This document shows positions 1,472 through 40,275 of a DNA stretch of 40,931 nt, in pieces. The position numbers and the translations under genes were made by a program. The DNA comes from a virus. The notes beneath the pieces are model-generated. The model was not told where the DNA came from and made no database searches. It saw only the letters and a list, made by a program, of their open reading frames with translations. Location of the stretch: positions 1-40,931 of IMG/VR virus record IMGVR_UViG_3300042922_000652, one strand, 5' to 3'. Every line of letters starts with the position of its first letter. The first letter of the stretch is position 1.

Positions 1472-2196
1472 AGATTACACCTCGTATAATATGCACTTGC
1501 AGCACTTCCATAAGTGCCGTCATGCCATGCCTTGAGTTGTTCTAAATACAGCTCGGCTTCTAGATCATTTAATGATTTGGAGTATATTTTCTGTTTTTGC
1601 TGTTGCGCATTAGACAATATTTTTATATCACTCAAAGAAGTACCATTAATATATTGGTCTATTTCATATTTTAAGCTCTCTATTCTATATTCAATCACTT
1701 TGAACGTGACATTGAATTTAGACGATAAGTGATCTTTGAAAGACATAATATCGGTAGCATCGCGAAAAGCGTCGTAATCAGCCTTGATCAATGGTAGCAA
1801 TGCTTGATACGGTATTATAATTTCTGCGGCACCTTCGTTCGCTTGCCATTCCAAAAACACATCTTGCTTTGCATAGACAGAATCGATACAGTTAAATATT
1901 TTTTTATCTATGTCTCTGTGAATGCAAAGGTGAACAAATTCATGCCCACAGTCAAGATTCTGCTCAGCATCTGATCTGTCTTGGTTAAGAAGAATAACGT
2001 CTTCCCCTGGGACGCTTCCAATAGCAGCCATGCCTCGTAATGCCTTTGTTTGAAACGCAAGCTTTTTAAGCATTATACCATCATTAATACACACATCTAC
2101 CATATTAAAGCCATAGTCGGTTACGCCTAAGCCTAGCCCGGCTTTATATTTATGCACTTCATCATACAACCTTCCTTTAGTAAAATATTTTGCCAT
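1468..2196 (-). CDS. immA: ImmA/IrrE-family metallopeptidase
   Basis: The protein has 242 residues with the zinc-protease motif HEFVH (His85, Glu86, His89) inside DCGHEFVHLCIH, typical of ImmA/IrrE (DUF955) proteins. In this family the protease cleaves a partner XRE repressor when DNA is damaged, which derepresses the mobile element (known for ICEBs1 ImmA/ImmR). Here the gene lies 3 bp downstream of the repressor gene and overlaps the integrase start by 4 bp, so the repressor at 2200-2511 is the obvious substrate. The C-terminal third (about residues 150-242) is rich in charged residues and not diagnostic. Function as an anti-repressor is inferred from family and position. Confidence 0.9.
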   Translation of the reverse strand: MAKYFTKGRLYDEVHKYKAGLGLGVTDYGFNMVDVCINDGIMLKKLAFQTKALRGMAAIGSVPGEDVILLNQDRSDAEQNLDCGHEFVHLCIHRDIDKKIFNCIDSVYAKQDVFLEWQANEGAAEIIIPYQALLPLIKADYDAFRDATDIMSFKDHLSSKFNVTFKVIEYRIESLKYEIDQYINGTSLSDIKILSNAQQQKQKIYSKSLNDLEAELYLEQLKAWHDGTYGSAASAYYTRCNL

Positions 2197-2199
2197 TCA

Positions 2200-2511
2200 T
2201 TAATTGCCCCCTCTTAGTCTTTTAATAGTCTCGATTGCAAGTTTAATATCATCTGGATGAATTCCGCTTTTCTCAGCTTCTTTAGCGAGACTGAGATAAA
2301 TGTTACTCAGTTCCATTTCTGCACCTAATAAAAAGTCCACCGTAACATTATAAAAAGATGCAAGTTTTAATAATACCTCAGAGTCTGGACTCCTTAAGTC
2401 TCTTTCGTAACCGCTCAACGTATTTGGCGCGATGCCTAGTTTATCAGCTACGTCTTTTTGCATATAGCCCTTCTCTTCTCTTAGTTTTGTCAATCTCTCT
2501 CCGACCGTCAT
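2200..2511 (-). CDS. CI-like XRE-family repressor
   Basis: The protein has 103 residues. The N-terminal helix-turn-helix (about residues 4-60) has LTKLREEKGYMQKDVADKLG and the recognition segment PNTLSGYERDLR, a classic XRE/Cro-CI fold. The short C-terminal part (65-103) is too small for the LexA-like autocleavage domain of lambda CI, which fits control by the neighbouring ImmA-type protease. It is the first gene of the leftward operon, with AGGAGG just upstream of the ATG. It presumably binds the operators in the divergent region 2512-2771 and maintains lysogeny. Confidence 0.9.
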   Translation of the reverse strand: MTVGERLTKLREEKGYMQKDVADKLGIAPNTLSGYERDLRSPDSEVLLKLASFYNVTVDFLLGAEMELSNIYLSLAKEAEKSGIHPDDIKLAIETIKRLRGGN

Positions 2512-2553
2512 AAAAACCTCCTGTGATTAAAAAATAAAATCGCAAAATAGATA

Positions 2554-2582
2554 TTGACAAATCGCACTATGAGATTTATAAT
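2554..2582 (+). promoter_or_regulatory. Rightward early promoter, perfect sigma-A consensus
   Basis: TTGACA (2554-2559), a 17-bp spacer and TATAAT (2577-2582) match the consensus exactly. It points at the Cro-like gene at 2772 and the early operon. The spacer holds an operator (2561-2575). A perfect 15-bp palindrome, TATAATCTGATTATA (2577-2591), overlaps the -10 and the likely start site. Confidence 0.85.
2561..2575. promoter_or_regulatory. Operator in the rightward promoter
   Basis: ATCGCA-CTA-TGAGAT is an imperfect 6-3-6 inverted repeat with one mismatch to the symmetric form ATCGCA-N3-TGCGAT. It sits exactly in the centre of the 17-bp promoter spacer, so a bound repressor would exclude RNA polymerase. 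A further lone half-site ATCGCA is at 2539-2544. Confidence 0.7.
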
Positions 2583-2681
2583 CTGATTATACCACTAATC
2601 AACAACCTTGCATATGCGAGATATAATATCTACAGCTTACCATAACACATGCCCGTGCTATGTCCATCAGCTTACTTTTAT

Positions 2682-2710
2682 ATTATAAATCGCAAAACGC
2701 GAAGTGTCAA
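2682..2710 (-). promoter_or_regulatory. Leftward repressor/integrase promoter, perfect consensus
   Basis: On the minus strand TTGACA (2710-2705), a 17-bp spacer and TATAAT (2687-2682) form an exact sigma-A promoter for repressor, metalloprotease and integrase. It faces the rightward promoter, so the two transcripts would overlap by roughly 85 bp. The perfect palindrome TTAATC-TGT-GATTAA (2714-2728) lies just upstream of the -35. Confidence 0.85.
2689..2703. promoter_or_regulatory. Operator in the leftward promoter
   Basis: ATCGCA-AAA-CGCGAA (plus strand) matches the operator at 2561-2575 in one arm and in spacing, and is again centred in the 17-bp promoter spacer with one base left on each side. 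This is the second site of the same 6-3-6 operator class, so repressor and/or Cro can probably act on both promoters. Confidence 0.7.
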
Positions 2711-2771
2711 TGATTAATCTGTGATTAACAATAGGTAATTATTACTATATTATGGAAGAAAGGAGAATATA

Positions 2772-3032
2772 ATGAGCGGATCAAGTAATGATACTTGGAA
2801 AAAGCGTGGTGAAATCTTAAAAAACGCAAGGCTGTCAAAGGGATTGCTGCAGAAAGATGTAGCTAAAGTCTTGGGTGTTAAGAGTAATACAGTTGCCGGA
2901 TACGAAGCTGGATCGCGCAAGATTGAACTAGATGATGTCGTAACTTTATGCCTTTTTCTCGGTATAGACCTTGCTTTATTTTGTGGAATAAATCGCAATT
3001 TTAAGTTTGTGAAAATCTGTAATGAGAATTGA
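2772..3032 (+). CDS. Cro-like XRE-family regulator
   Basis: The protein has 86 residues with an XRE helix-turn-helix at about residues 11-65: LQKDVAKVLGVKSNTVAGYE followed by AGSRKIELDDVVTL. It resembles the repressor at 2200-2511 in the recognition segment (KDVA-LG-NT-GYE), so both probably read related operators. It is the first gene of the rightward early operon and follows AGAAAGGAG. The likely role is the lytic-side switch protein, by position. Confidence 0.85.
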   Translation: MSGSSNDTWKKRGEILKNARLSKGLLQKDVAKVLGVKSNTVAGYEAGSRKIELDDVVTLCLFLGIDLALFCGINRNFKFVKICNEN

Positions 3033-3098
3033 GTATCTATCAGTCAATTGATACAAGCGGTTTAGCATAATTTATACAAAGAAATATGAGGTGATAAT

Positions 3099-3239
3099 AT
3101 GATGCACGGTACCGTTAATCTTGATAAATTATGCAGACTTCTAGAAAAAATCGCTACTGAAGAAAATCGCGGTTCGATAGTTACTATCAAGATAATACCG
3201 GATGAAAAGCAACTACAACAAACGAATAAGACCGCCTAG
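3099..3239 (+). CDS. Small early protein, unknown (46 aa)
   Basis: A short open frame starts MMHGTVNLDKLCRLLEKIA and ends in a lysine/glutamine-rich tail. It follows GAGGTGATAAT at proper spacing. No family is recognised. The stop codon lies inside a perfect 14-bp palindrome, ACCGCCTAGGCGGT (3231-3244), which could form a hairpin but has no T-tract. Its place between the Cro-like gene and other small early genes and its good ribosome binding site support it as real. Confidence 0.6.
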   Translation: MMHGTVNLDKLCRLLEKIATEENRGSIVTIKIIPDEKQLQQTNKTA

Positions 3240-3277
3240 GCGGTTACCAGTTGGACAAGCTGGGAAGGAGGTCCATC

Positions 3278-3475
3278 TTGAAAGAAGATATTAAAACGCT
3301 CCTTAAATTCATTCTCGGCATCTTAGCATTTCTCTATATCTATGGGACAGCAGGCTCACTCGAGCTTGATATGATCACCGTCCGTCAGGCGCTAATTCGA
3401 TGTGGAGCAGTATTTGGAGCAATAGCAATTGGGGTGGTTATAGCAGCTATAAAACAGCATAGGGAGGAGGGATAG
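3278..3475 (+). CDS. Small membrane protein, unknown (65 aa)
   Basis: I chose the TTG at 3278 because AAGGAGG ends 6 bases before it; the upstream in-frame TTG at 3251 has no such site. The protein has two hydrophobic segments, about residues 9-25 (LLKFILGILAFLYIYG) and 42-58 (CGAVFGAIAIGVVIAAI), with a charged KQHREEG end, so a small two-span membrane protein is likely. No family is recognised. It is 2 bp from the next gene, in the early operon. Confidence 0.65.
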   Translation: MKEDIKTLLKFILGILAFLYIYGTAGSLELDMITVRQALIRCGAVFGAIAIGVVIAAIKQHREEG

Positions 3476-3477
3476 AG

Positions 3478-3678
3478 ATGCTTGATGTTGAATTTACAAC
3501 CATAGAGGAAGGAATTGAAAAACTCAAAAAAGTAGTAAGCACTAGAAATCAGATGGGAGGAGCTCTGTATTTTAATGTTTGTGAAGAAGATTGTTTGAAA
3601 ATCGCTGACAAGTTATCGTCCATGGGTATGAGTAAATTGGCTATCGCTACTATCGGGGGATGGGAACTCAGAAGATAG
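3478..3678 (+). CDS. Early protein, unknown (66 aa)
   Basis: The protein is MLDVEFTTIEEGIEKLKKVV onward, soluble and charged, with two cysteines (CEEDC) in the middle. GGAGGAGGG ends a few bases before the ATG, which is 2 bp from the preceding stop. I do not recognise the family. Its tight packing in the early operon argues for a real gene. Confidence 0.65.
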   Translation: MLDVEFTTIEEGIEKLKKVVSTRNQMGGALYFNVCEEDCLKIADKLSSMGMSKLAIATIGGWELRR

Positions 3679-3690
3679 GAGGTCTTAGAT

Positions 3691-3840
3691 GTGGCAAGGT
3701 TTAAGAAATGCGTTACCTGCTGTCGGCTTTGGAACATCAGCACAAGGCAGGAGATACCAAGCAGCGGATATGTTTGTCCGCACTGCATTAGCGCAAGAAA
3801 AAAGCTCACCAGGTACGGGAATACCAAAGTGAGCGCATAA
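3691..3840 (+). CDS. Small zinc-ribbon protein (49 aa)
   Basis: The frame starts at GTG 3691, 7 bases after AGGAGG (3678-3683). It reads MARFKKCVTCCRLW, then GYVCPHC and a basic tail (ARKKLTRYGNTK). The CxxC plus CPHC pair is a clear zinc-binding arrangement. A competing ATG frame at 3689 lacks cysteine order and looks like a shadow. It is probably a nucleic-acid-binding accessory protein; the exact role is unknown. Confidence 0.65.
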   Translation: MARFKKCVTCCRLWNISTRQEIPSSGYVCPHCISARKKLTRYGNTKVSA

Positions 3841-3892
3841 CAAATTATCTAAGGTGATTGTATCACCAATGACTAAGGAGGTCAAATATTTT

Positions 3893-4291
3893 ATGGCAAA
3901 AGGAATTGTAAGAAAGATTGATGAGCTCGGGAGAATCACTCTTCCGATGGAGTATCGAAAGACATTTGGAATTTCTGCAAAAGAGCAGGCGCCGATCGGC
4001 ATGTACATAGTTGATGGAGAGATCCATCTTGTTAGGGCGGATGATAAGTTCCGTGGAATCGCTCGTAATTTGGACGAGCTCGGGAGATTAACATTACCTA
4101 TCGAGGTTCGTAGATCCCTGAACTTCACAGACCGACAGAAGGTGGATATATATGTGGAATATGGTCAGATCATCGTAAAGAAGGTCGGCTGTGAATGGTG
4201 TAGCAGCGAAGAGGATTTGATGGAGGTTAATGGCCATTGTCTCTGCCGGAAGTGTACTTATAAGGTAGTGGATGCGGTGATGGAGGCGTAG
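3893..4291 (+). CDS. Tandem SpoVT/AbrB regulator with C-terminal zinc ribbon
   Basis: I chose the ATG at 3893 because it follows AAGGAGG (3876-3882) and begins MAKGIVRKIDELGRITLP, the canonical AbrB start. A second copy of the swapped-hairpin motif is at about residues 55-97 (GIARNLDELGRLTLPIEVRR). The C-terminus carries CxxC at 100/103 and CxxC at 118/121. AbrB domains are DNA-binding transition-state regulators and usually act as dimers of single domains. Two domains in one chain plus a zinc ribbon is less common. The likely role is an early phage regulator or an interferer with host AbrB control. Confidence 0.8.
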   Translation: MAKGIVRKIDELGRITLPMEYRKTFGISAKEQAPIGMYIVDGEIHLVRADDKFRGIARNLDELGRLTLPIEVRRSLNFTDRQKVDIYVEYGQIIVKKVGCEWCSSEEDLMEVNGHCLCRKCTYKVVDAVMEA

Positions 4292-4293
4292 TC

Positions 4294-4536
4294 ATGAATC
4301 AACTTGAACTTGAAAAAGCCATGCAGCTCAGGAAGATTGCAGAACGTGCTTTTCCGGAGCCAGTAGCGGACTTCTCTGTTAAGAGATTTGCCAATGGGCA
4401 ATTCACGACTGCAGCAGATGGAAGCTTGATTGAAATCGCAATGATGATTGCGAAAGGGTTGCATGATATAGAAATTCAACATCCTGAGGCTCGAATGATA
4501 TTTGTGGCTGCGCTTAGCGATTATTTGGAGGGATAG
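4294..4536 (+). CDS. Early protein, unknown (80 aa)
   Basis: The protein starts MNQLELEKAMQLRKIAERAF and is soluble and mostly helical by composition, with no cysteine motif. The ATG lies 2 bp after the AbrB-type gene's stop, preceded by GGAGG at 4282-4286. No family is recognised. It is part of the early run that leads into the recombination module. Confidence 0.65.
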   Translation: MNQLELEKAMQLRKIAERAFPEPVADFSVKRFANGQFTTAADGSLIEIAMMIAKGLHDIEIQHPEARMIFVAALSDYLEG

Positions 4537-15089: not shown

Positions 15090-16091
15090 ATGCAAGTTAA
15101 TACGGATGAAGTAATTCTAAGAATAACTACAGCTATGTACCATCTTCTAGACCAGATGCAGCTTAATGAGCTTAAGTCAGTACTATATATGTACTTGGGT
15201 AAGTATCAGCTGTCGGAAGAGGAAACGTCTTTATCTACCGCACTAGATGATAACTGGGATAAGGTAAATATGTTTCTGGCAACGTTGAAAATTGAAGGTA
15301 GGTCAGATAAAACCATCAAAGCATATTTGACAGAATATAAGCAATTCTTCTGTCAGATTAATAAAAATTTCAGGGATATCACAACCAATGATATTCGTAT
15401 GTACCTTGCATATTGTAAAACCACCAGGCATAACTCCGATACGACACTTAATAACCGGATACATAACCTTATGACATTGTTTAAATGGCTGCGAACCGAA
15501 GATTATATCTCGAAGGATCCAATGGATAAAATCCATGTAATTAAAACCGAGAAGAGGGTTAAGGACGTTCTCACGGATGAGCAAACAGAAATGATCCGTT
15601 GCAGTTGTGAAAAGGAGAGGGACCTTGCTATCATCGATATGATTATGAGCACCGGGATTCGCGTTGGTGAGCTAGTGAAGCTTAACCGATCAGATATTGA
15701 CTTTATGAATGGACAGTGTGTGGTATATGGCAAAGGGCGTAAAGAGAGGCCGGTTTATCTGAATGGTAAGTCTAAGGTGCATCTACTGTGGTACCTAGAG
15801 CAGAGAAAGGATAACAATCCTGCACTATTCGTAGGAGACAGGGAGCCTCATGAGAGACTTACCGAATCTGGTGTTAGGTCGATGATGCAGAGTATATGTA
15901 AAGGCAATGATATCCACCTTTATCCGCATAAACTCAGACGGACAATGGCAACTAATATGGTTGACCGTGGAGCTCCGGCGGAGTATGTACAGAAGATTCT
16001 AGGACATGCATCGGTAGAAACAACATTGCAATGTTATGTAAATCTAAGCAATAGAGCAATTAGGGAGGCGTATAGAAGATATGCTGTATAG
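15090..16091 (+). CDS. Tyrosine recombinase, XerC/XerD-like
   Basis: The protein has 333 residues with a SAM-like core-binding domain (about 55-140) and the catalytic domain with all key residues: Arg191 (GIRVGEL), Lys215, His280-x-x-Arg283 (HKLRR), His306 (LGHAS) and Tyr316. An extra 50 residues precede the usual N-terminus. It is not next to an attachment site, and the serine integrase already serves integration. A role in resolving phage multimers or in an inversion or accessory recombination is more likely. The ribosome binding site is GGGGGAGG. Confidence 0.85.
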   Translation: MQVNTDEVILRITTAMYHLLDQMQLNELKSVLYMYLGKYQLSEEETSLSTALDDNWDKVNMFLATLKIEGRSDKTIKAYLTEYKQFFCQINKNFRDITTNDIRMYLAYCKTTRHNSDTTLNNRIHNLMTLFKWLRTEDYISKDPMDKIHVIKTEKRVKDVLTDEQTEMIRCSCEKERDLAIIDMIMSTGIRVGELVKLNRSDIDFMNGQCVVYGKGRKERPVYLNGKSKVHLLWYLEQRKDNNPALFVGDREPHERLTESGVRSMMQSICKGNDIHLYPHKLRRTMATNMVDRGAPAEYVQKILGHASVETTLQCYVNLSNRAIREAYRRYAV

Positions 16092-16968: not shown

Positions 16969-17400
16969 TTGACTGATAAAGATTTATGCCAGTACAAAAT
17001 GAAGCAGTGTGAGATCGCTGAACTCGAGGTCCGGATCAATAAGCTGTTGGACAAGGAGATCACCACTGGTCACAGTACTGTGACTGGATCATCTAAGTAT
17101 TTCCCTTACACTGAATTTCGAATGGGTGTATGGGTAGATGATCCGAAGGAAGTATCTGATAGGGACAAACTAATTGCTATATACCGGGAAAGGCAGTCAG
17201 CAGCCAGAGCAGCAGTCCTGCGGATAGAGCAGTTCATTGGTGATATACCCGATAGTGAACTACGAATGATTTTCCAGTACAGGTACATAGATGGGAAGAA
17301 GCTGAGGGAAATCGCAATTCTTATAAATAGGGATTATACAGGGATATGTAAGAAAATCCATGACTATCTTAAGTTTCAAACAAATCAACAAAATATGTGA
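16969..17400 (+). CDS. Late regulator, sigma-70 region 4-like (DUF1492/ArpU type)
   Basis: The TTG start follows AAGGGCGGTGA. The protein has 143 residues with a coiled N-terminal half (CEIAELEVRINKLLDKE) and a C-terminal helix-turn-helix of the sigma region 4 kind (ELRMIFQYRYIDGKKLREIA, then NRDYTGICKKIHDYLKF). Proteins of this family sit at the end of the early region in Gram-positive phages and activate the late packaging/structural operon. The position fits, with the caveat that an accessory island of about 2.9 kb lies between it and the terminase. Confidence 0.75.
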   Translation: MTDKDLCQYKMKQCEIAELEVRINKLLDKEITTGHSTVTGSSKYFPYTEFRMGVWVDDPKEVSDRDKLIAIYRERQSAARAAVLRIEQFIGDIPDSELRMIFQYRYIDGKKLREIAILINRDYTGICKKIHDYLKFQTNQQNM

Positions 17401-17442
17401 TAAAATTTAAAGTGGAAGGTTGCCAATAGGTGACCTCCTACG

Positions 17443-17493
17443 GCTACTGGGTGTCACAGCCCGGTGGCTGCTTTCCCTCACTCCCCCGAGGGA
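17443..17493 (+). ncRNA. Structured GC-rich noncoding stretch
   Basis: Two adjacent stem-loops stand out in an otherwise AT-rich gap. GCTACTGGG (17443-17451) pairs with CCCGGTGGC (17460-17468) around an 8-base loop. TCCCTC (17474-17479) pairs with GAGGGA (17488-17493) around ACTCCCCC. No good open frame covers it. A noncoding RNA, an mRNA leader or a packaging-related site are the options. Only structure is seen. Confidence 0.4.
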
Positions 17494-17517
17494 TCCCCTC
17501 ATACGTGTTCCCCTTAT

Positions 17518-17559
17518 AAAAGGCATTCGGAAAATCAAAAAAGTACGAGTGCCTTTTTT
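17518..17559 (+). terminator. Rho-independent terminator after the early/middle operon
   Basis: AAAAGGCATTCG (17518-17529) pairs with CGAGTGCCTTTT (17546-17557), giving a 12-bp stem and a T6 tract (17554-17559). It ends transcripts of the late regulator operon. The terminator at 18397-18431 shares AAAGGCATTC and GTGCCTTTTT and a similar upstream GGATCCCC/GGAATCCCC block, so the two are probably duplicated. Confidence 0.75.
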
Positions 17560-17883
17560 GATTAATTGCTAAAGCATGTATATATAAACAAAAAATGCGC
17601 AAAATAATATCGTTCTCTATAAAAATGCAGAGGAGGGATATTAAATGCACATTTATTGTTAATGTTGACCTTCTGTTAAGCTTACAGCTGGTAATATATA
17701 TTGGCTTATATATTATCATAAATCATAACAGGAGGTCGTAAAAATTTTTAAGGGTTATCTACCCGATGCTTACAGTATTATTATTGGATAGATAACCCGA
17801 TTTTATACAAAAAATAAATATAAAATATAATACAAAAGCAATTCAGGGACTCTTCACAGCTGGTCTTTTCTTTGTAACTCCTA
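17560..17883 (+). other. AT-rich gap with hairpins and a five-codon leader
   Basis: No normal gene is visible. The stretch holds a possible leader peptide MHIYC (17645-17662) behind AGGAGGG (17631-17637), an AT stem AATATATA/TATATATT (17693-17714), an orphan AGGAGG near 17730 with no start codon at proper distance, and a perfect 10-bp stem GGGTTATCTA/TAGATAACCC (17752-17761/17789-17798) followed by GATTTTATA. It looks like the remains of regulatory or coding DNA at the entry of the accessory island. Confidence 0.45.
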
Positions 17884-17912
17884 TTGCAAATACTGTAAGA
17901 AAGTAGTAGTAT
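17884..17912 (+). promoter_or_regulatory. Promoter of accessory gene A
   Basis: TTGCAA (17884-17889), a 17-bp spacer and TAGTAT (17907-17912). The block TATTGCAAATACTGTAA is identical in the promoter at 19487-19515. It points at the gene at 17935. Confidence 0.65.
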
Positions 17913-17934
17913 TTGGATGGAAGGAGGGGATCAT

Positions 17935-18231
17935 ATGGGAAAATTGAGTTGTGTTTCTCACTATGAAGGTAACGTGGACTTCATTAACCAGATTATTGGT
18001 ACTCTTGACATAATGTGTGAAAACAAAGAATCAGAGAATTTTACTATGGGAAAGAAGTTTGGCGTTTCTAATACTTATACCATGCAATTTAATTACAGAG
18101 GGTACAACGTAGAATTCGATATAAGTGTTAAAGAAATTTTTGAGAAATGCTATAATTCAAATCAACTTGGAAGCGCAATCGATGACATAATCAAAACTAA
18201 AATAGATATCGGCTTAGCTAAAAAAATATAA
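17935..18231 (+). CDS. Accessory protein A, unknown (98 aa)
   Basis: ATG 17935 follows AAGGAGGGG; an upstream ATG at 17917 overlaps that ribosome binding site and is rejected. The protein starts MGKLSCVSHYEGNVDFINQI, is soluble, with a beta-rich middle (YTMQFNYRGYNVEFDISVKE) and a helical end. No family is recognised. It has its own promoter and terminator, which marks it as an independently transcribed moron. A role in lysogenic conversion or defence is possible but unproven. Confidence 0.65.
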   Translation: MGKLSCVSHYEGNVDFINQIIGTLDIMCENKESENFTMGKKFGVSNTYTMQFNYRGYNVEFDISVKEIFEKCYNSNQLGSAIDDIIKTKIDIGLAKKI

Positions 18232-18239
18232 AACAACGT

Positions 18240-18262
18240 AAAGCATCCTTCGGGGTGCTTTT
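18240..18262 (+). terminator. Terminator of accessory gene A
   Basis: AAAGCATCC, TTCG loop, GGGTGCTTTT: a 9-bp stem with one wobble pair and a T-run. The 21 bases at 18242-18262 are identical to 20291-20311. Confidence 0.85.
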
Positions 18263-18269
18263 CATATGT

Positions 18270-18354
18270 GGAATCGTAGCTCAATAGGCAGAGCACTGGC
18301 GCGCGCATAACAAGTACAGTGGATGTAGGTTCGACTCCTTCCGGTTCTACTCCA
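18270..18354 (+). tRNA. tRNA-like element with abnormal anticodon arm
   Basis: The parts of a cloverleaf are present: acceptor GGAATCG (18270-18276) against CGGTTCT (18342-18348) with G-U pairs, TA at 8-9, D stem GCTC/GAGC with loop AATAGGCA, and T arm GTAGG-TTCGACT-CCTTC with one mismatch. The 3' end reads A-CTCCA. The anticodon region is 24 nt instead of 17, closes only three clear pairs (CTG/CAG) and contains an alternating GCGCGC and CATAAC. It may be a decayed tRNA, a tRNA with an unusual insertion, or a tRNA mimic. An anticodon cannot be assigned. Confidence 0.45.
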
Positions 18355-18396
18355 TCATTCATTGGTGGAATCCCCCCTTATATGTTCCCATTGTGT

Positions 18397-18431
18397 AAAG
18401 GCATTCTGCGTGATCTGTAGGGTGCCTTTTT
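18397..18431 (+). terminator. Terminator after the tRNA-like element
   Basis: AAAGGCA (18397-18403) pairs with TGCCTTT (18423-18429), followed by T-rich sequence. It is related in sequence to the terminator at 17518-17559, and the preceding GGAATCCCCCC and TATATGTTCCC also recall the block before that terminator. Confidence 0.7.
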
Positions 18432-18496
18432 AGTGTTCCACAGAGGAAAAATCTCGCCATATGATAATGTTGAAATTAGATAGGAGATGTTATATA

Positions 18497-19450
18497 ATGG
18501 AAAATAAAGTCATGTATCAAGGGGGATTTATGAGACTATATAATATTTATTTTTTATGTAAGAAAAACATTGATCTGATTAAGGATTTCCAACTGCCCCC
18601 ATCGAAAGATGGAAATGGCAGAGATATATTCAAATTTAATAACTGGAAACAAGTTAAAAATATTCTTAATGAACTATATACGGTAAATGGCTTAGAGGAT
18701 TCTGTGAGAAAGGTCTATGAGAGTCTAGACCCCATAACGAGAGATGCAGCAATCCCAATTATCAGCACAGGCGTGAAAAATACATTGGTTAATAACCAAA
18801 CTACATTAATTGAAAAAATGCAGACAATAATTGAACTATACGAAAGTATGGGAAATGGAGTTTCAGGTACAGGGATCGATGTTAAGCTACCTAAGTGTTC
18901 AGGTTTGAAGGAATACATAAATTATCTAAAAGAGATAGACTTTGTGTTTACACAATGTCCGTTTCTGCGTTCGAAAGACGAAGCCATTGTATTCAACACA
19001 GTTGATGTTGGTTCTATTTGGTTGACATTTGCTATTGTTGCTGGAACGAGTTTTTATATTCTAAATAACTTAGCTGGATTAATGAAGCAAGCGGTAGCGA
19101 TCAAATCTAATATATTAACATACAAACAACAAGAAGAACAATTACATGCAATGAGAAATAAAAATGAGATCTCAGACGAAGTGATACAAACCTTTAAGAA
19201 ATTAAAGGATGATATTCTAAAAGATGCGGTTCACGCTTTGGAAGATAAAGAGTCTCCGCTGGCAGATGGTGAAGAAATTGATAAAGCTGCAAAATCAATT
19301 GAAAAGTTGATCTTGCTTATGGACAAAGGTGTAGAAATACAATCATCCATTGAAACACCTGCAGAAGTTAAAATATTGTTCCCAATGCAAGAAACTCAGC
19401 CATTATTGATAGAGGATATAATAAAACTGCTAGAAATGAAAAAAGAATAG
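18497..19450 (+). CDS. Accessory protein B, membrane-associated, unknown (317 aa)
   Basis: ATG 18497 is preferred because TAGGAGAT precedes it; an in-frame ATG at 18461 has no ribosome binding site. The protein has a helical N-terminal part, the segment EAIVFNTVDVGSIWLTFAI followed by VAGTSFYILNNLAGL (about residues 160-195, one likely membrane segment), and a long charged coiled-coil-like region (KQQEEQLHAMRNKNEISDEV). No family is recognised. Base composition is more AT-rich than the structural genes, as for a recently gained gene. The layout (sensor-like helical part, one hydrophobic segment, coiled coil) and its place in the moron island make it a candidate defence or exclusion protein. 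This is inference only. Confidence 0.7.
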   Translation: MENKVMYQGGFMRLYNIYFLCKKNIDLIKDFQLPPSKDGNGRDIFKFNNWKQVKNILNELYTVNGLEDSVRKVYESLDPITRDAAIPIISTGVKNTLVNNQTTLIEKMQTIIELYESMGNGVSGTGIDVKLPKCSGLKEYINYLKEIDFVFTQCPFLRSKDEAIVFNTVDVGSIWLTFAIVAGTSFYILNNLAGLMKQAVAIKSNILTYKQQEEQLHAMRNKNEISDEVIQTFKKLKDDILKDAVHALEDKESPLADGEEIDKAAKSIEKLILLMDKGVEIQSSIETPAEVKILFPMQETQPLLIEDIIKLLEMKKE

Positions 19451-19486
19451 CATATCTTTAAAGAGTTTTCTCACATCCTGTTATTA

Positions 19487-19515
19487 TTGCAAATACTGTA
19501 ATAATGTGGTATAAT
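19487..19515 (+). promoter_or_regulatory. Promoter of accessory gene C
   Basis: TTGCAA (19487-19492), a 17-bp spacer and TATAAT (19510-19515). It shares TATTGCAAATACTGTAA with the promoter of gene A. The -10 is perfect, so gene C can be expressed in the lysogen. Confidence 0.75.
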
Positions 19516-19538
19516 TTGGAATGAATGGAGGCGTTTAA

Positions 19539-20285
19539 ATGAATAATGAACCGAGACTTTTACCAAATGGGCATTATGCTTACCCGTTTTATGTTTTTTA
19601 CAAATTCCAAACAAAAAGCATTTTAAAAGATCTGCAAGGCAGAGGACATATATATATGAAAAACCTTGATTACTTTATTAAGCTCGAACAAACAACGGGT
19701 GACGACAACATAGGTGACGCGAAAGAAGCTTTATCTTTTCGTTCTTCATTAAAATTAGAATATAATGGAAACCAAATCATTGATTTGGGAACATGCGATG
19801 TCAGGCTGGGAAGCGAAATTAAAAAGCCAGTATATTGTCTTACATGCATAGATATTTTAGACTACATAACAGAAACAACTCAAACAACAATAGAATGCGT
19901 ACCTGCTTTTGACAATAATATTATAGATGGATTCAAAAAAGAGGATGAAGAACTTTACGTCCTTATCATTGACGCTGTCTCATTCCAAAATAAAATCAAA
20001 CAATACTTAGACGAAAACTATATAAAATACAAATGCAATTTTGTTGAATACAGAGACACAAATATTTTCTATCGAAAGGACGAGCATATATCGTTCAATG
20101 GGCCGTTTCATAAAAGACAGAAATTTGCATACCAAAAAGAATTTAGATACATTATTGACAAACAAATAGAAGATGAAGAATGTTTTGAAATCTGTATAGG
20201 GGATATATCAGATATATCACACCTCTGTAAAGCAGAAGAGTTATTGCAAAACAAATATAAATATATTCTTGAGTTAAACAATTAA
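19539..20285 (+). CDS. Accessory protein C, DUF2971-like (248 aa)
   Basis: The ATG follows ATGGAGGCG. The N-terminal part has FYVFYKFQTKSILKDLQGRG and HIYMKNLDYF then DDNIGDAKE. The C-terminal part has HKRQKFAYQKEFRYIID. This order (an N-terminal 'K-[x]-L-x-G-IYM-L-YF' block and a late 'F-Y-KEFR' block) resembles DUF2971-type proteins, seen singly in phages and defence islands and without a settled activity. I make this assignment by eye and with low certainty. No catalytic residues can be named. It has its own promoter and terminator and an AT-rich codon use. Confidence 0.65.
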   Translation: MNNEPRLLPNGHYAYPFYVFYKFQTKSILKDLQGRGHIYMKNLDYFIKLEQTTGDDNIGDAKEALSFRSSLKLEYNGNQIIDLGTCDVRLGSEIKKPVYCLTCIDILDYITETTQTTIECVPAFDNNIIDGFKKEDEELYVLIIDAVSFQNKIKQYLDENYIKYKCNFVEYRDTNIFYRKDEHISFNGPFHKRQKFAYQKEFRYIIDKQIEDEECFEICIGDISDISHLCKAEELLQNKYKYILELNN

Positions 20286-20290
20286 AAGAG

Positions 20291-20311
20291 AGCATCCTTC
20301 GGGGTGCTTTT
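20291..20311 (+). terminator. Terminator of accessory gene C
   Basis: AGCATCC-TTCG-GGGTGCT followed by TTT; identical over 21 bases to 18242-18262. It closes the island just before the packaging genes. Confidence 0.85.
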
Positions 20312-20385
20312 CTATTGCATAAAAGCGGTGGGGAGAAAAAATTTTTAACATGTGATACCATCATCCTGAGAAGGGAGGTGGACGC

Positions 20386-20577
20386 ATGTCTAAAACTGAA
20401 CTCATAAAACATTATGAAAATGAGATTGCAAAAACTAATACAAAAATAATCGGCCTGTTGAGAAGCAGAAGGATACTAGGCAATCTTCCAATCATAGCCG
20501 AGCTTATGCAGTACGTATTAAAGAATAAGAACGTATATCTGCGCAATCTGAAGCAAGCAGAAAGAGAGTCCCAATAA
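20386..20577 (+). CDS. Phage protein, unknown (63 aa)
   Basis: A helical basic protein, MSKTELIKHYENEIAKTNTK to QAERESQ, after AAGGGAGGTGG. It is located directly upstream of the terminase small subunit, where Gram-positive phages often carry a small gene. Its function is unknown. Confidence 0.6.
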   Translation: MSKTELIKHYENEIAKTNTKIIGLLRSRRILGNLPIIAELMQYVLKNKNVYLRNLKQAERESQ

Positions 20578-20626
20578 GTGGCTCTTTTCTTATAACCAAA
20601 ACAAACACGATTGAGAGGTGGGATGC

Positions 20627-21352
20627 ATGGCAAGAGCACCGGATGAAAGATATAGCGAAGCATATAATCTCTTCCGATCCGGAAAGAAATTAATTGAAAT
20701 AGCTAATCAATTAAATCTCCCGGAAGGCACAGTTCGCCGGTGGAAGAGTACTCATAAATGGGATAGCGAACGCTCGGATAAGAAAAGCGAACGTTCGGAT
20801 AAGAATAAAGGTGGTCAGCCTGGTAATAAAAACGCTGTGGGTAATAAAGGCGGTGCAGCTCCGGGAGAAAATAAGAACGCTGAGAAGTATGGCTTCTTCT
20901 CGAAGTACCTTCCACCTGAGACAAAAGAGATATTCGATGCAGTAGCTCAAGCAGATCCACTTGATTTGCTATGGCACCAGATACAGCTCGCCTATGCGGC
21001 TATTGTGAGGGCCCAGCAGATTGCATATGTTAAAGACCAAACTGATATGTCAAAGACTAAGATACAACAAAAGGATGGTGATACCGTCACCGAAGAACGC
21101 TGGGAGGTTCAATTTGCCTGGGACAAGCAATCTAACTTTATGAAGGCGCAGGCTAGAGCGCAGGGAGAGCTAAGGTCCATGATTAAGCAATACGATGAAA
21201 TGCTGCATAATAACTGGGATCTAGCAACAGAGGAACAGAAGCGGCGCATCGCACTGATAAAGGCTCAGACTGATAAGATGTCAGGTACAGATAACCAAGC
21301 CGAGCTTAAGCGGTTAGATGAAGTCCTCGGAGAGATTAAGGGGGTTGTCTAG
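20627..21352 (+). CDS. terS: Terminase small subunit
   Basis: ATG 20627 is used with GAGAGGTGGG; it starts MARAPDERYSEAYNLFRSGK. The N-terminal helix-turn-helix (about 15-45, KLIEIANQLNLPEGTVRRWK) recognises packaging DNA, and is followed by a basic low-complexity linker (KSERSDKNKGGQPGNKN) and a helical oligomerisation part. The organisation matches the PBSX-type small terminase family. The stop is directly followed by the large subunit ATG. The cognate pac/cos site is not identified; the structured region 17443-17493 or sequence inside this gene are options. Confidence 0.88.
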   Translation: MARAPDERYSEAYNLFRSGKKLIEIANQLNLPEGTVRRWKSTHKWDSERSDKKSERSDKNKGGQPGNKNAVGNKGGAAPGENKNAEKYGFFSKYLPPETKEIFDAVAQADPLDLLWHQIQLAYAAIVRAQQIAYVKDQTDMSKTKIQQKDGDTVTEERWEVQFAWDKQSNFMKAQARAQGELRSMIKQYDEMLHNNWDLATEEQKRRIALIKAQTDKMSGTDNQAELKRLDEVLGEIKGVV

Positions 21353-39485: not shown

Positions 39486-39521
39486 ACCCCTGGGCTTGAT
39501 CGGCTCAGGGGTGATTTTTTT
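39486..39521. terminator. Bidirectional terminator between amidase and the minus-strand gene
   Basis: ACCCCTG (39486-39492) pairs with CAGGGGT (39506-39512), followed by ATTTTTTT on the plus strand; the minus strand has TTTTCTT after the stem. It ends the late operon and the convergent gene at 39520-40245. Confidence 0.75.
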
Positions 39522-40245
39522 ATTCTATTTCATCGATATCAAGAGAGTATCCTAAAATTTCCCCGATACTTGTTATATTTCCTTTAATGGTAACCGTGTC
39601 ACCTTTTGCCATTTCCATTACTTTCTCTGTCTGTTCGTCAGATTTAATGTAACATTGAACACCCATAAAAGCAAATTCATCATCCGAAGGAACTAAACTT
39701 ATATATTTTCCATCGCTATCTATATTTGATAATCTGCCTGTAATTTCTACATATTGATCTTGATATTTCTTTTCTGCTTTTAATGCATTGGAATTCAGAT
39801 CTTCCATCATCTCAGAAACATCATAAGCAGAGTACTCAATGGGCTTTTCAGTTGGTTCTGGTTTTTCAGTTGGTTCTGGTTTTTCAGTTGGTTCTGGTTT
39901 TTCAGTTGGTTCGACCTCTTCATTATCAGATGGAGATTTATCCGTGGCAGATGTAGTGTCGGAGGTTTTTGTTGTAGGCGTGACGTCATCGTCACCAGAG
40001 CTGAAGAGCGAGCCAATAATGCCAATTATAAAAAATACTCCGATAACGATCAAGAGTGTTATTAGGCAGCCTCGCTTTTTCTTCTTAGGCGGTTGTTGTG
40101 ACTGCATATAAGGATTTTGTTGTTGTGGCATTACAGGTGGTGGTACTTGCTGTGATTGATTCTGCTGCATCTGTGGTTGTGCCGGAGTACCACAACCAGG
40201 GCAAAAATTGCCATTGAATTCTATTCCACATTTATTACATTTCAT
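39520..40245 (-). CDS. Zinc-ribbon membrane protein with OB-fold-like C-terminus
   Basis: ATG 40245 is used because GGAGGG (minus) precedes it; a further ATG at 40260 overlaps that site. The 241-residue protein has a zinc ribbon (CNKCGIEF and FCPGCG), a Pro/Gln-rich linker, one transmembrane segment (CLITLLIVIGVFFIIGIIGS), a Thr/Ser-rich stalk with four EPTEKP repeats and a C-terminal OB-fold/tRNA_anti-like domain (YVEITGRLSNIDSDGKYISL). The layout is typical of membrane-anchored host-like proteins. With its own perfect promoter it is likely a lysogenic conversion gene. Confidence 0.82.
   Translation of the reverse strand: MKCNKCGIEFNGNFCPGCGTPAQPQMQQNQSQQVPPPVMPQQQNPYMQSQQPPKKKKRGCLITLLIVIGVFFIIGIIGSLFSSGDDDVTPTTKTSDTTSATDKSPSDNEEVEPTEKPEPTEKPEPTEKPEPTEKPIEYSAYDVSEMMEDLNSNALKAEKKYQDQYVEITGRLSNIDSDGKYISLVPSDDEFAFMGVQCYIKSDEQTEKVMEMAKGDTVTIKGNITSIGEILGYSLDIDEIE
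39844..39912 (-). repeat. 18-bp tandem repeat encoding EPTEKP
   Basis: Three exact and one partial unit of an 18-bp tract (plus-strand unit CAGTTGGTTCTGGTTTTT) encode PTEKPE in the stalk of the membrane protein. Copy number is likely variable between strains. Confidence 0.9.
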
Positions 40246-40275
40246 TTGTAAACCCTCCATGTTATTAATAATTGG

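Follow-up and report, generated by a model that had tools for sequence, protein, structure and literature searches.

Late transcripts pass terminators in the known lambda Q system. In the lambdoid late region (Q, pR'), the late regulator is followed by a promoter, a terminator, and then by cargo that precedes the late genes, and the locus described here has the same order; it differs in that the lambdoid cargo is under the late promoter, that Q binds DNA, and that the regulator family and the RNA are unrelated to those found here (PMC6266700). The Tab moron of phage JBD26 has a promoter of its own and is encoded between terS and terL, on the opposite strand; as in the present locus, an accessory gene that has its own promoter lies next to the terminase genes of a late operon. 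The genes described here are instead forward cassettes 5' of terS with a common promoter motif and terminators (PMC10884400). The anti-phage hotspots of P2 and P4, as presented in the available portion of their description, are located next to cos and resemble the present locus in their fixed place on the packaging side and in their exchangeable, often defensive, genes; these hotspots belong to other phages and hosts, and that portion describes neither a common promoter/terminator frame nor a leader RNA (PMC9122126).

Two RNA elements are also relevant. The put RNA of HK022 is about 70 nt long, forms two stem-loops just after a promoter and ahead of terminators, and acts on early operons (PMC9378689). 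The leader RNA reported here likewise has two stem-loops just 3' of a candidate promoter with terminators beyond, but it precedes late genes, and its putative function in antitermination is judged likely. The conAn element of pLS20 opens a Gram-positive operon with internal terminators, which were called a good sign of processive antitermination, and with an internal gene that has its own weak promoter (PMC8955417). The present locus shares this arrangement of RNA element, internal terminators, and inner genes with their own promoters; it differs in that conAn serves a conjugation operon and requires the ConAn1 protein (PMC8955417).

The slot between the late regulator and terS

The DNA that was analyzed, referred to as the window, is the 40,931-base IMG/VR record IMGVR_UViG_3300042922_000652 (positions 1–40,931). 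It contains the gene set of a temperate phage: a repressor-like region, a serine integrase, a late regulator, a terminase, a portal, and an endolysin. The features of the locus are collected in Table 1. The block from the promoter of gene A to the terminator of gene C has a GC content of 0.336 versus 0.406 for the window and ranks 5th of 386 sliding windows. It interrupts the order late regulator–terminase, and its flanks match phrog_36 and phrog_509. The original prediction had described the block as AT-rich and as an interruption of this order, and both statements hold.

Table 1. Coordinates of the features at the late regulator–terS locus of the window
Feature	Positions	Strand	Match or basis
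RinA/ArpU-like late transcriptional regulator; 5' boundary of the slot	16969..17400	+	phrog_36 E 1e-9, phrog_248 E 0.005
Candidate late promoter, extended -10 TGTGATAAAAT	17396..17406	+	Most listed relatives have a TRTGNTATNAT-type element directly 5' of the leader RNA
Late-leader RNA, hairpins P1 and P2	17412..17473	+	Fold, covariation, model R1 76.6 bits
Third hairpin CCCUC...GAGGG, common to relatives	17474..17495	+	Alignment and fold
Leader terminator AAGGCATTC...GTGCCTT and T run	17518..17557	+	Fold and terminator survey
Cargo promoter, gene A	17884..17916	+	Repeat and motif in relatives
Gene A, 98 aa, ORFan	17935..18231	+	No Pfam, significant PHROG, PADLOC, or tblastn match
Terminator of A, with the same sequence as the C terminator	18242..18263	+	Sequence repeat
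tRNA-like RNA, enlarged anticodon loop	18270..18349	+	RF00005 45.5 bits (Rfam tRNA cut-off 29)
Terminator after tRNA-like RNA	about 18397..18435	+	Terminator prediction
Promoter of gene B, TTGAAA-17-TATAAT	18470..18498	+	Score 11/12; unrelated to A/C motif
Gene B, about 306 aa from conserved start (ORF 18497–19450)	18530..19450	+	Rare phage-borne family
Cargo promoter, gene C (TTGCAA-17-TATAAT with TG)	19487..19519	+	Promoter score 10/12
Gene C, 248 aa	19539..20285	+	phrog_26561 (function unknown) E 2e-23
C terminator, a sequence also present directly 5' of terS in relatives	20291..20312	+	Repeat and relatives
63-aa ORF, cargo-to-terS interval	20386..20577	+	Weak phrog_16159 match, E 0.01
terS, downstream boundary of the slot	20627..21352	+	phrog_509 E 2e-84

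For comparison, 80 terS relatives were fetched. One terS family was used and the frame was sampled mainly within it; the other terS types in the sample are those of L127, L138, L151, and L152 (L-numbers denote the compared relative loci). The contents of the slot differ among the relatives, and constant structural genes were not found. The slot contains a PIN gene in L002, RelA_SpoT with NA37 and a PDC-S33 match in L008, a DUF2971-like gene with a PDC-S31 match (E 9.5e-6) in L009, DUF6731 with a membrane protein in L029, and DUF2806 in L069. A TIR-like gene (E 9e-8) occupies the slot of L149, a genome locus found via the leader RNA. Uncharacterized soluble-plus-membrane pairs are present in L003, L010, L012, and L066. 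A Kiwa-like identity of these pairs was considered and rejected: PADLOC gave no convincing match, none of the solved structures matched, and no relation to DUF6731 was seen. The slots of L073 and L148 are nearly empty; in the latter, about 150 nt contain the leader, the terminator, and terS together.

The block is thus inserted between genes that are adjacent in the near-empty relatives and that enclose other contents elsewhere. Its base composition differs from that of the window, and its genes appear to have their own promoters and terminators, as predicted from consensus sites and a conserved motif. These properties, the ORFan or rare genes, and the swapped or absent genes of the relatives bear out the moron island and the exchanged cargo of the original prediction. 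They support the assignment of the block as an exchangeable moron, or cargo, slot at the head of the late operon in a temperate phage of Lachnospiraceae-type hosts. The slot as such is of a known kind, and the unusual part, on the sequence comparisons made here, is the phage-specific promoter/terminator frame.

Two site-specific recombinases are encoded in the window. The serine integrase is located at the left end (134–1471, - strand) and a tyrosine recombinase (15090–16091, + strand) just 5' of the late-regulator region; the counterpart of the latter in L127 is 65% identical and similarly placed. The tyrosine recombinase was considered as the mover of the cassettes and was dropped because no homologue was found in the searched stretches of the cassette-bearing loci L003, L005, L008, L016, L022, and L076. 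A second cargo spot is found at the right end beyond the endolysin, where a superinfection-exclusion Sie-like gene (39520–40260, - strand; phrog_8545, E 1.7e-16) contains an 18-nt tandem repeat at about 39845–39910. In the noncoding DNA 5' of cassette A (17752–17798), an inverted repeat of 16 nt, GGGTTATCTACCCGAT / ATTGGATAGATAACCC, encloses a 15-nt loop.

Cargo promoters and genes A, B, and C

The window has two exact copies of the 17-mer TATTGCAAATACTGTAA, both on the + strand (17882 and 19485). No third copy was found in the window even with 3 mismatches, a tolerance at which 0.33 copies are expected in shuffles. Both copies lie within a 41-nt repeat of 83% identity that spans the -35 element, the 17-nt spacer, and the -10 element of the promoters of A and C. 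The TG before the -10 element is lost in the A copy, which reads GTAGTAG where the C copy reads GTGGTAG. The terminators of the two genes share 22 identical bases, AGCATCCTTCGGGGTGCTTTTC. The sharing of promoter and terminator sequences had been predicted, with a length of 21 bases for the terminator repeat, which is one base short. This pair and an array at 39845–39893 are the only repeated 20-mers in the window.

The A/C promoter recurs 5' of cargo in L002, L003 (three copies), L005, L006, L009, L016, L022, and L076, always on the terS strand. The exact 17-mer was rejected as a specific marker since it matches 35 viral contigs, mostly by chance, whereas a degenerate 33-nt pattern of the promoter is specific: of 2.9 million viral contigs, it matches 8, and each of the 8 is a terS relative. 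The same pattern was found in 5 of 11.3 million genome contigs, of which four are phage-like or tRNA-side and the fifth is probably a chance match. One of them belongs to Anaerocolumna sedimenticola, the host of L009; its cultured strain CBA3638 carries the L009/L123 prophage. The match in a Herbinix MAG lies after an endolysin-like gene and before a ClpP-like SDH protease gene, and that in a Clostridiales MAG lies in the same integrase–regulator–terS frame. In Anaerocolumna AGMB13025 (L154, about 1657–3909, reverse complement), the promoter is located beside tRNA-Pro, outside any obvious complete prophage, and 5' of a peptidoglycan-binding-like gene and a DUF6731-like plus membrane-protein pair. 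A search that allowed 1 mismatch did not find the pattern in 294 further genomes of the order. Given the viral matches in terS relatives, the phage-like or tRNA-side context of four genome matches, and the lack of the pattern in these 294 genomes, the 33-nt cargo promoter is a phage motif and not a general host promoter. The hosts of the phages that carry it are, from these matches, Lachnospiraceae-type bacteria. Conservation in the promoter reaches beyond the sigma-A boxes, and an inverted repeat, CAAATACT...AGTATTTG, is part of its consensus; both hint at a regulator.

The most likely start of gene B is at 18530 (MRLYNIY), the start common to its homologues. These homologues (L020, L138, L139, and L140; 31–41% identity) are all in a phage-like context, and two of them are directly 5' of terS, in L020 and, with a different terS type, in L138. 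Gene B is carried by just 2 of 299 sampled host-family genomes, and a search of 391 genomes of the class provided one marginal match. No match to B was found in Pfam, in PDB sequences, or in PDB and BFVD folds; the AlphaFold model has a pLDDT of 67. The original prediction had labeled B a membrane protein. The label is uncertain because the most hydrophobic stretch averages 1.73, a borderline and weakly hydrophobic peak. Gene C had been called DUF2971-like, and this assignment was not upheld: the Pfam match (PF11185) has an E of 0.33 and 12.8 bits versus a curated cut-off of 22, and hhalign against the DUF2971-like protein of L009 gave 0.5%. A single-sequence structure of C was discarded at a pLDDT of 31.

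No homologues of A, B, or C were found in annotated phages, nor in viral contigs with single-protein queries. PADLOC provided no defense-family match for A or C; its one match for B, to HTH_IX (E 0.0016, 16 bits), covers a helical stretch and was not counted as membership. Genes B and C are independent of one another, with separate promoters and with homologues of each that lack the other. Expression of the cargo in the lysogen is plausible given the sigma-A-like promoters, and it is plausible that some cargo of the slot is defensive given the TIR-like, RelA_SpoT/PDC-S33, PDC-S31, and PIN genes of the relatives. Because of this cargo in the same slot, host-protective or anti-competitor functions would be the likeliest class for A, B, and C.

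Leader RNA and tRNA-like RNA

A structured leader RNA, which lies outside the coordinates of the original prediction, was found by aligning the region 3' of the late regulator. The fold of 17410–17562 has a z of -5.58 versus shuffles. RNAalifold of 11 sequences gave 17 pairs, 9 of which have compensatory changes. In an alignment of 26 sequences, which was fitted to the model and hence leans toward it, 90.8% of the cells are paired and both-side changes appear in 13 of the 17 pairs, with 0 of 500 shuffles reaching any of the measures. The paired share of this alignment was about halved when the pairing was shifted by one column. The covariance model R1 detected nine held-out phages with E values of 9e-10 to 2e-4, all on the terS strand and upstream of terS, and it also finds phage loci in genomes. 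Two further genome matches, L147 and L150, are in a nonphage context and were taken as chance. The whole long leader of L076 was rejected as a structured RNA at a z of -0.61; since it folds no better than shuffles, the claim is restricted to P1 and P2. No curated Rfam family matches the leader RNA, and the literature searched, a partial collection, yielded no description of it. Homology with put was not detected, the best R1 match in the HK022 stretch searched having 7.8 bits and an E of 0.99. A structured RNA family that is not in Rfam is well supported. The leader RNAs of L065, L069, L075, and L155 are not directly 3' of a late-regulator gene, an observation that counts against the slot model proposed below. 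In L009, a ParA-like gene on the opposite strand (3387–4454, - strand) occupies the slot between the late regulator and the leader RNA.

The tRNA-like element and the further terminator that had been predicted between A and C, along with gene B, are both present. ARAGORN calls no tRNA at this position. The anticodon arm is 7 nt longer than the Rfam model and has 18 nt inside a 3-bp anticodon stem, in place of the standard 7-nt anticodon loop of a functional tRNA. The element is conserved in L022, L073, L076, L151, and L152, where it lies within the same leader about 110–190 nt past P2; in the window, cassette A separates it from P1 and P2. Genuine tRNA genes hold the same position in the late regulator–terS interval of L018, L020, L021, L025, L074, and L077, as would be expected if the element were simply a degenerate phage tRNA. 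Such decay is unlikely because six phages retain the large 18-nt loop, GCGCGCGCAYAACAAG, whereas the acceptor-stem bases vary between phages and mostly still pair.

Proposed late transcription through the cargo slot

A terminator-like hairpin is located within 330 nt after 20 of 22 leaders. Terminators also crowd terS: one ends ≤60 nt before the gene in 46 of 72 terS loci, the frequency being 21 of 360 (6%) in shuffled sequences and 18 of 207 in stretches taken at random from the late operon. About 28–37 nt lie between terminator and terS in 17 leader-bearing loci, and a gap of this length would not fit a promoter outside the hairpin. The sole conserved sequence in this gap is the box CCAAAACRACGAAW, found in about 20 phages about 15–25 nt 5' of the terS RBS (20592–20608 in the window, for example), and it is not a -10 element. 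Among the relatives, no promoter-like element other than the leader promoter is conserved. Because of the crowded terminators, the short gaps, the lack of a conserved -10 element, and this single conserved promoter, late transcription is most simply explained by a start at the leader and passage across the terminators. In the window, the last strong terminator ends at 20312, and the 314 nt from there to terS could accommodate a separate terS promoter; read-through in this phage is therefore proposed on the basis of the relatives.

We consider it probable that the locus is an exchangeable cargo slot behind a leader RNA. The frame runs from the late regulator through the two-hairpin leader RNA with its terminator and the cargo to terS. 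In the lysogen, the cargo would be transcribed from its own sigma-A-like promoters and the terminators would hold terS silent. Upon induction, the late regulator would activate the promoter just after its own gene (17396–17406). RNA polymerase would be modified, either at the leader RNA or by the regulator, and would continue past the terminators to transcribe terS and the late genes. The structured leader RNA may thus let the polymerase pass terminators at the lytic switch. It is a tentative suggestion that the leader RNA constitutes a new RNA-based processive antitermination system of a Clostridia-phage late operon that permits terminator-fenced cargo, with the tRNA-like RNA as a cis part in some phages.

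RinA-type late activators act on the terS promoter in staphylococcal phages. By this precedent, the locus could be an ordinary moron slot that functions with no antitermination, where a regulator-activated promoter directly 5' of terS drives the late genes, the terminators insulate the cargo, and the leader with its terminator is a free trans-acting small RNA. The 314-nt interval of the window and the conservation of CCAAAACRACGAAW just before the terS RBS would be consistent with such a promoter. We regard this arrangement as rather unlikely given the gaps of the 17 leader-bearing loci with no conserved -10 element, the leader promoter as the only conserved one, and the compact L148. The shared promoter and terminator could also be recombination handles between which cassettes are swapped by homologous recombination, as the near-identical elements around unrelated genes and the three promoter copies of L003 might suggest. 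The identity ends at the functional promoter and terminator, however, which is equally explained by selection on function, and the proposal appears improbable.

The original prediction had offered superinfection immunity made of B and C as an example. A single dedicated system of B and C, with or without A, would fit the cargo location, the lysogen-type promoters, and the defense-like cargo of the relatives. It is nevertheless very improbable, since B is found without C in L020, L138, L139, and L140 and relatives of C are found without B, the two genes have separate promoters, B is barely hydrophobic, and the PADLOC search was negative for A and C and weak for B.

The leader RNA model and the 33-nt cargo promoter, as part of the slot behind a leader RNA favored here, provide a searchable handle for the cargo genes of prophages of anaerobic gut and digester bacteria, which likely include unknown defense genes. 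If read-through is true, the locus would be a Gram-positive phage example of RNA-driven processive antitermination, of which very few systems are known. It would also explain how lysogen-expressed genes are kept inside a late operon without switching the late genes on.
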